A program made the translations under genes and the position numbers. The notes under the pieces were generated by a model. It was not told the origin of the DNA. It saw only the letters and a program-made list of their open reading frames with translations, and did no database searches. From contig JABGQU010000011.1 in NCBI GenBank assembly GCA_018648605.1, positions 1 through 36,244 of the forward strand: a stretch of DNA of 36,244 bases. The letters run 5' to 3'. Positions 2 through 21,807 of this stretch are shown in pieces. How positions within the stretch are numbered: the stretch's first letter is position 1; each line of letters begins with the position of its first letter. The stretch comes from Anaerolineae bacterium (GTDB lineage: Bacteria > Chloroflexota > Anaerolineae > Anaerolineales > Villigracilaceae).

Positions 2-154
2 TCAATTTGGGTTGGTCTTTTTCATCTACCCCAAATTATTGAGATGATACGAAATGAAGAACAAAGAAAGGTGGCTAGTATAAAACAAGATACCCCATGT
101 CTTTCAAAGCATTACAGCTTCATTGGTAACTGTTTTATGGAGGCAATGATCTAA
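2..154 (+). CDS. C-terminal fragment of an unidentified protein
   Basis: An open frame enters from the left edge and runs 50 codons to a TAA at 152-154. It reads like protein (for example GLFHLPQIIEMIRNEEQRK, then DTPCLSKHYSFIGNCF) and is followed about 60 bases later by a clean intrinsic terminator, as expected for a gene end. I do not recognise the family from this tail. A 50-codon open frame could arise by chance, so the call depends mainly on its placement before the terminator. Confidence 0.5.
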   Translation, partial: SIWVGLFHLPQIIEMIRNEEQRKVASIKQDTPCLSKHYSFIGNCFMEAMI

Positions 155-214
155 TAACTTGATTTGGTCGCTTTCCCATCAAAAATGGGTAGAGTTATTA
201 TTGAGCCAATAGCG

Positions 215-240
215 AAACCGGCCCTATGGTCGGTTTTTTC
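215..240 (+). terminator. Rho-independent terminator after the edge gene
   Basis: A nine-pair stem (215-223 with 228-236, one G-U pair) closes a CTAT loop and runs into TTTTTTCTTTT. Just upstream, two further pairings are visible: CCCAT/ATGGG at 175-179/185-189, enclosed by TAATAACT/AGTTATTA at 152-159/193-200. The 3' untranslated region is therefore structured. Confidence 0.75.
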
Positions 241-6207: not shown

Positions 6208-7020
6208 TTATCCCCAAACTTCATATACCAATTTCGGCAAAATCTCACCCGATTTGCCATGTAGGGCAAAGTCAACATAAGGCGTGAGTGGGGTTGGGTC
6301 AAGATTTACCTCGACGACTGCTGCGCCTTGTCGATGCGCTTCCCCGGCAAGTGACGCGGCGGGCTGCACCAAGCCCGATGTGCCGATCGAGAAGAAGATG
6401 TGGCAATTGGCAGCGGCTTCCAGCGCGGCGTCGAACGCACCCAGCGGCAGGGATTCGCCGAACCAGACTACGTCTGGGCGCAGGTAGGCGCCACATTTTT
6501 CGCAGCGGGGAACGCCAGTGTCATTGCGAGGAGCATGCTTTTGCGAGGCGGCAATCTCCTTGTGCATAGAGGGAGATTGCTTCGCTTCACTCGCAATGAC
6601 AGGCTCTTCCCACTCATCCACTACACCGCAACCATCATAGCATTTCACCTGTTGAATATTGCCATGTAACTCCAGCACATTTTGACTGCCAGCCTGGCGA
6701 TGATAGCCATCCACATTTTGGGTGATGAGGGTGAAGCTGGAGACGCGATGCTCCATCTCGACGAGGGCAAAATGACTGGGGTTGGGGGTGGCTTCAGCAA
6801 CTTTATTTCGCCGCATCGCGTACCAGTCCCAGACCAGCTTGGGGTCACGAGCGAAGGCTTCTGGCGTTGCCAGGTCTTCAGGGCGGTATTTTGACCAGTG
6901 TCCATCTTGAGCGTCACGGAAGGTTTTTAATCCGGATTCGGCAGAAATCCCTGCCCCTGTAAGCACTGCAATACGAGTCGCCTTTTTGAGAAATCGAATT
7001 AATTCTGCGGAAATTTCCAT
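6208..7020 (-). CDS. cobB: Sir2-family NAD-dependent protein deacylase with repeat insertion
   Basis: A 270-residue sirtuin that removes acyl groups from lysines using NAD. The NAD-binding motif GAGISAESGLKTFRD is at 22-36, TQNVDG at 100-105, and catalytic His119 lies in LELHGN. Zinc cysteines are Cys127, Cys131, Cys173 and Cys176, and GTSG starts at 213. Residues 141-168 (VIASEAKQS...APRNDT) are not part of the family: they are encoded by an 81-bp palindromic repeat inserted in frame between the two cysteine pairs, so the zinc loop is about 27 residues longer than normal. The remaining length is typical of bacterial sirtuins. It is transcribed alone, divergent from feoA. Activity is plausible because all catalytic residues survive. 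Confidence 0.92.
   Translation of the reverse strand: MEISAELIRFLKKATRIAVLTGAGISAESGLKTFRDAQDGHWSKYRPEDLATPEAFARDPKLVWDWYAMRRNKVAEATPNPSHFALVEMEHRVSSFTLITQNVDGYHRQAGSQNVLELHGNIQQVKCYDGCGVVDEWEEPVIASEAKQSPSMHKEIAASQKHAPRNDTGVPRCEKCGAYLRPDVVWFGESLPLGAFDAALEAAANCHIFFSIGTSGLVQPAASLAGEAHRQGAAVVEVNLDPTPLTPYVDFALHGKSGEILPKLVYEVWG
6519..6601. repeat. Palindromic repeat, copy 1, inserted in frame in the Sir2 gene
   Basis: Outer 12-bp inverted repeats TGTCATTGCGAG (6519-6530) and its complement (6590-6601) enclose an inner pair GCAATCTCC (6551-6559)/GGAGATTGC (6572-6580). The unit between the 11-bp arms (6520-6600) is 81 bases, a multiple of three with no stop in the host frame. Related copies lie at 16150-16238 and 21719-21807. 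This is a non-coding-type dispersed element translated as the peptide VIASEAKQS and following residues. Confidence 0.85.
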
Positions 7021-16149: not shown

Positions 16150-16238
16150 TGATTTTGCGAGGAGAGCGATAGCTCGACGAAGCAATCTTCTCGAATATGA
16201 GACTGCTTTGTCGCAAGAGCATGCTCCTCGCAGGGTCA
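16150..16238. repeat. Palindromic repeat, copy 2, upstream of mrp
   Basis: Outer arms TGATTTTGCGAGGAG (16150-16164) and the complement of TGACCCTGCGAGGAG (16224-16238) enclose GAAGCAATC and GACTGCTTTG segments. It is 89 bases, the same family as the element inside the Sir2 gene. Confidence 0.7.
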
Positions 16239-21718: not shown

Positions 21719-21807
21719 ATATGTCTTTGCGAGAAGGGTTTTCGTCTGAGGAAGCAAGAGGGGAGATTGCTCCGCCCCGACAGGCTTCGGATCTCGTATA
21801 GACATAT
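21719..21807. repeat. Palindromic repeat, copy 3, after the racemase gene
   Basis: Outer arms ATATGTCTTTGCGAG (21719-21733) and the complement of ATATGTCTATACGAG (21793-21807), with inner GGAAGCAAG and GGGGAGATTGCTCC. It is 89 bases, the same family as 6519-6601 and 16150-16238. It fills most of the gap between two plus-strand genes. Confidence 0.65.

Follow-up and report, generated by a model that had tools for sequence, protein, structure and literature searches.

Can a mobile DNA palindrome become part of an enzyme without destroying it? The question is raised by a sirtuin gene of a metagenome-assembled Chloroflexota genome, in which an 81-bp palindrome lies between the codons for the two zinc-binding cysteine pairs. 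The whole stretch of DNA that we analysed (36,244 nucleotides, here called the window, on which all unprefixed positions are given) contains the following features:

6208-7020, minus strand: SIRT5-like Sir2-family deacylase of 270 aa, reading frame intact (Pfam SIR2, E=2.3e-50; YxxR motif at Y67/R70)
6628-6642, minus strand: first zinc cysteine pair, C127 and C131, N-terminal to the insert (from sequence and alignment)
6520-6600: 81-bp palindrome consisting of a head-to-head pair of units; it supplies sirtuin codons 141-167 in frame; sequence GTCATTGCGAG...CTCGCAATGAC
6519-6559, plus strand: first repeat unit, TGTC-ATTGC...GCAAT-CTCC (51.8 bits)
6572-6601, minus strand: second repeat unit, inverted and shorter (30 nt; 37.2 bits)
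6493-6504, minus strand: second zinc cysteine pair, C173 and C176, C-terminal to the insert (from sequence and alignment)
16154-16233: second copy of the palindrome, outside any long reading frame (16154-16190, plus strand, 32.1 bits; 16203-16233, minus strand, 23.3 bits)
21722-21757, plus strand: degenerate half-copy of the palindrome, a weak match (16.7 bits, E=0.0013)

The protein is a SIRT5-like member of the Sir2 family: it has the Sir2 fold, with Sir2 homologues and SIRT5 as its closest structures, the four zinc cysteines, the YxxR motif and all of the invariant NAD and catalytic residues (GAGIS, TQNVDG and H119). A preliminary description of the locus had placed the palindrome between the two cysteine pairs at 6519-6601, as exactly 27 codons free of stops in the host frame, with the added residues VIASEAKQS...APRNDT and with the catalytic and zinc residues surviving. 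These claims held except for the last added residue. The palindrome proper occupies 6520-6600 and ends exactly at codon boundaries, the T and A at 6519 and 6601 lengthening it by one pair; codons 141-167 read VIASEAKQSPSMHKEIAASQKHAPRND, and the T that follows is a host residue. Folding of this DNA yielded an energy of -31.7, compared with -16.8 +/- 2.5 for shuffled sequences (z -6.05). Both related copies that had been reported, at 16150 and 21719, are real, the second being a weakly related half-copy whose right half (to about 21805) has diverged too far to be scored. At the start of the window, positions 130-232 (plus strand) match the c-di-GMP-II-GAG riboswitch with a score of 40.7, just above the gathering score of 40.

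About 30 sirtuins from the order, six of them from the same genus, align along the whole protein and have 0-1 residues in place of the 27-residue insert; the same-genus proteins are 243-245 aa long, compared with 270 aa here. Between a conserved WxE-like triplet and a (V/I/P)P(R/H)C motif the same-genus sirtuins always have three residues, and deletion of GTC...GAC from the present gene leaves the same three residues; the alignment therefore has only one possible position, with a net insertion of 81 bp. Judged by these alignments, the 27-residue segment is an exact insertion relative to the orthologues, and relatives lack precisely this segment, as had been anticipated; the sirtuin insertion was seen in a single MAG. 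The AlphaFold model of the sirtuin has a mean pLDDT of 87.9, with most of the protein outside the insert above 90, and residues 143-165, within the insert, form its only long low-confidence stretch (pLDDT <50). As for the surface loop that the preliminary description proposed to check for, the insert is thus predicted to be an unstructured one. Human SIRT5 aligns through the insert region as a single stretch, which fits a zinc-ribbon loop of naturally variable length.

The palindrome belongs to a repeat family that is abundant elsewhere in the genome, where a BLAST search gave 47 matches and a 13-mer of the repeat gave 57 (compared with 2 for a reversed control); with a covariance model of the half-unit the number rose to at least 149, merging into about 124 places; the census is based on the model matches and on individual stretches of the genome. 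A full element consists of two inverted units of the form YGTC-ATTGC-GAG...GCAAT-CTCC and measures 77-111 bp in total. In each unit a 5-bp outer stem encloses about 12 to more than 40 nt, and the tail is CTCC; 58 of 61 extracted units start with TGTC (43) or CGTC (15), the extraction pattern itself having demanded GTC. The outer stem shows compensatory changes from T-A to C-G at two pairs, in 9 and 4 sequences (13 cells), and the covariation score of the unit stem was above those of all 500 shuffles. Among genomes of the genus the number of units ranges from 0 (G002) through 6, 28, 35 and 119 to at least 147 and up to at least 150 (G004), and strong matches occurred in 46 of the 301 genomes of a phylum sample. 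No Rfam family matched the repeat, a plasmid search with the insert peptide gave no match, and literature searches returned nothing on the peptide and, for the DNA motif, only unrelated papers among those listed.

Copies of the repeat also lie in frame inside other genes of the genome, as the preliminary description had foreseen. In-frame copies or remnants were identified in ten further genes; with the sirtuin this makes 11 genes and 12 sites. These hosts were picked by a long reading frame running through the element and then compared with same-genus orthologues; their names derive from Pfam and from recognition of the sequence:

Mevalonate kinase: in-frame insert; insert-free orthologue in one species (G001)
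apgM-type phosphoglycerate mutase: in-frame insert; loop varies among species, a weaker case
Aminoglycoside-phosphotransferase-like kinase: in-frame insert; clean insert-free orthologue in one species
MenE-like ligase: in-frame insert; clean insert-free orthologues in two species
FAD reductase: in-frame insert; loop varies among species, a weaker case
O-antigen ligase: short in-frame remnant; clean insert-free orthologues in eight species
PMT-type glycosyltransferase (gt39): in-frame insert; clean insert-free orthologues in six species
FemX-like protein (femX): in-frame insert; clean insert-free orthologues in three species
GT4 glycosyltransferase: in-frame insert; loop varies among species, a weaker case
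YqeC-MobA: two in-frame sites; at site 1, clean insert-free orthologues in seven species

Copies near gene starts (C20:37518, C21:45383, C205:4735 and C60:3413) were excluded from this count because translation may begin after them. No gene split out of frame by an element was found among the candidates, which were judged by eye: those with a long frame on both sides of an element, lacking read-through, resembled gene junctions or antisense frames. All 11 of 11 cases are thus in frame, compared with an expected third (p 6e-6), a value that assumes equal visibility of broken genes, which is only partly true. A repeat specially built for coding was considered and rejected, since full elements have 2.84 of six frames open, compared with 2.62 +/- 0.17 after shuffling. 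Because stops are not unusually rare and the length is a multiple of three in only 9 of 37 intergenic copies, the excess of in-frame cases indicates selection after insertion; the repeat is not adapted to coding, and the in-frame copies are survivors.

We conclude that the sirtuin segment is very probably a mobile palindrome of the REP/RPE type, small and non-autonomous, that inserted in frame and is tolerated as an unstructured surface loop. The palindrome would have entered the gene most simply as GTC...GAC, without target-site duplication. By chance the entry site would have preserved the frame and lain in the length-variable zinc-ribbon loop, where the enzyme would tolerate the 27 added residues as an unstructured surface loop. 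Like events would have affected ten or more further genes here, as well as genes of sister species; out-of-frame insertions would be removed by selection, leaving harmless loop insertions that may later shrink or diverge. The insert is presumably translated, and the enzyme probably retains its activity.

Insertions recur at the same sites across species. G000, G004 and G006 share the codon position of the mevalonate kinase insert; gt39 carries its insert in G000 and G004; and femX has a diverged insert in G006 and G007, with an apparent remnant in G008. That such same-site inserts are independent insertions at hot spots and not inherited, an alternative that concerns these other genes and not the sirtuin segment, is a serious possibility, though we lean towards inheritance. 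For mevalonate kinase, the insert of G000 and that of G004 each resemble one intergenic copy more closely than they resemble each other, the same loop in G002 is occupied by a different palindrome, and species-shared inserts show less synonymous change than the genes carrying them (mevalonate kinase, p 0.003; gt39, p 0.05; YqeC, p 0.0007). Against hot spots, the gt39 inserts of the two species are mutual best matches among all copies compared and have identical flanking codons. The low synonymous change could itself be produced by any one of independent insertion at hot spots, conversion between copies and hairpin constraint. We offer only tentatively, and with some doubt, the broader idea that palindromes continually supply new protein loops in this lineage while the DNA of the coding inserts is held by a cause other than the protein, such as hairpin constraint, repeat homogenisation or hot-spot reinsertion.

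Two observations on these loci are added here. The palindrome in the G002 mevalonate kinase loop (L239, G002:C99:5478-5497) is TCTCCCCC...GGGGGAGA, which has 27 copies in G002 and 3-7 in three sister genomes. In YqeC-MobA, a half-unit encoding NLRGSFTAEAVSS differs by about one synonymous change between G000:C210 (L236) and G007:C171 (L292), the host proteins being only about 72% alike.

The genes with recurring inserts (mevalonate kinase, gt39 and femX) have omega values of 0.06-0.14 (0.12-0.14 for mevalonate kinase and 0.11 for gt39), compared with 0.4-1.0 for the inserts, so that strong purifying selection acts on the proteins and the inserts are left to drift. These values bear on the reading that the insertion damaged the sirtuin gene, leaving a young pseudogene of intact appearance. 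Twenty-seven residues near the zinc site could indeed destabilise the fold; however, the frame and the catalytic and zinc residues are intact, and the dN of the sirtuin to three outgroups (0.29-0.30) is within or near the range of insert-free sister species, showing no acceleration. Moreover, inserts that persist in constrained hosts indicate that such insertions are compatible with function in general, and we regard a pseudogene as unlikely. The recurring inserts and the unaccelerated sirtuin favour loops that are tolerated over genes in decay.

The same measurements argue against co-option, in which the loop would alter the sirtuin (for example, its substrate choice or partner binding) or an mRNA hairpin would tune expression. 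The sirtuin zinc domain contributes to partner choice, and both the location of the insert in this domain and the low synonymous change of species-shared inserts would suit such a role. Yet the inserts sit in unrelated proteins with differing reading frames and peptides, their omega in the two best cases is 0.4-0.8 compared with 0.11-0.12 for the hosts, the sirtuin segment is modelled as disordered, and other species manage without it; co-option therefore seems very unlikely. An assembly artefact or chimeric join at the repeat is hardly credible: although the genome is a MAG of 211 contigs and repeats can cause misjoins, the sequence on each side of the insert matches that of the orthologues and continues a single gene in one frame, and comparable inserts occupy identical sites in separately assembled genomes.

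Tolerance as a surface loop, the preferred reading, places the sirtuin among coding palindromes, which are known mainly from Rickettsia, whose intracellular life and small populations might account for the tolerance of such inserts. The in-frame insertions in at least ten other genes extend this pattern to a distant environmental lineage; the host here is a Chloroflexota member, from another phylum than Rickettsia, and is no known intracellular parasite. The Rickettsia palindromic elements (RPEs) of R. japonica lie in pre-existing frames and recur at the same loci, and an ATGAC motif is typical of RPE-4, -6 and -7 (PMC3767692). The Chloroflexota palindromes resemble RPEs in lying in frame in unrelated genes and coding for surface loops, a position at the protein surface that the model indicates here for the sirtuin only, in occupying matching sites in sister species, in the presence of different kinds of repeat at a single site or close to it, and in having an O-antigen ligase among their hosts. 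The ends of the repeat (GTCAT...ATGAC) also contain the RPE motif, and it is by this motif alone that its unit sequence, ATTGCGAG...GCAATCTCC, was set beside the RPE families. The earlier proposal of a DNA repeat turned into protein sequence as in Rickettsia is thus supported, the likeness being one of mechanism and not of membership in a named RPE family. Of the two findings named beforehand as refuting it, a conserved insert in orthologues and a repeat missing from the rest of the genome, neither was made. A 2024 review considered a similar process conceivable in other prokaryotes (PMC10969869).

The repeat has a second set of relatives in the CGTC-tagged REPs, which are mostly head-to-head dimers, are in some cases intragenic, have no transposase and were reported from five phyla, Chloroflexi not among them (Di Nocera et al. 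2013, PMC3733652). It shares with them the CGTC/TGTC tag, a stem beginning with A and T, the head-to-head dimers, the intragenic copies and, from our search for Y1 transposases, the absence of an associated transposase. Unlike the Chloroflexota repeat, with its 5-bp stem, long variable interior and CTCC tail, they have a stem of 8-9 bp, a loop of 4-5 nt and a CCA tail. Because neither its stem-loop nor its tail fits the definition of the CGTC families, we describe the repeat as a new family of the same REP/RPE kind, not as one of CGTC-1 to -4. Short palindromes in frequent inverted pairs are also typical of the RAYT-mobilised GTAG REPs and REPINs, but the repeat has no GTAG end, and none of the four Y1_Tnp matches in the genome had a unit in the flanking DNA read, which extended to at most about 1.5 kb; mobilisation by a RAYT was accordingly rejected and no dedicated transposase is claimed. 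Like MITEs, the elements are short, non-autonomous and numerous, with inverted terminal repeats; unlike MITEs, they have no autonomous partner that we found and no visible target-site duplication at the two clear sites among the few resolvable, the sirtuin (net 81 bp) and the mevalonate kinase compared with G001 (net 90 bp). The repeat was probably moved by a transposase acting in trans.

Novelty lies in the lineage, in the repeat family and in the sirtuin as host; the mechanism has already been described for Rickettsia RPEs and intragenic REPs. A genus whose repeat load runs from none to at least 150 units offers a natural comparison for the entry of repeats into genes, the lifetime of inserts and any gain of function, and annotated proteins with VIASEAKQS- or NLRGSF-like stretches should be read as containing repeat-derived sequence.

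Two of the host proteins have a further insertion each. The MenE-like ligase (G000:C89, L203) carries another in-frame insert in its C-terminal domain; this contains ACGATGGTGCAACGCACCATCGT, apparently a palindrome of another kind. A second loop of the mevalonate kinase (G000:C30, L006) contains a proline-rich insertion, SPPVGGSKFPPLEGTPP, that varies between species and is possibly another repeat.
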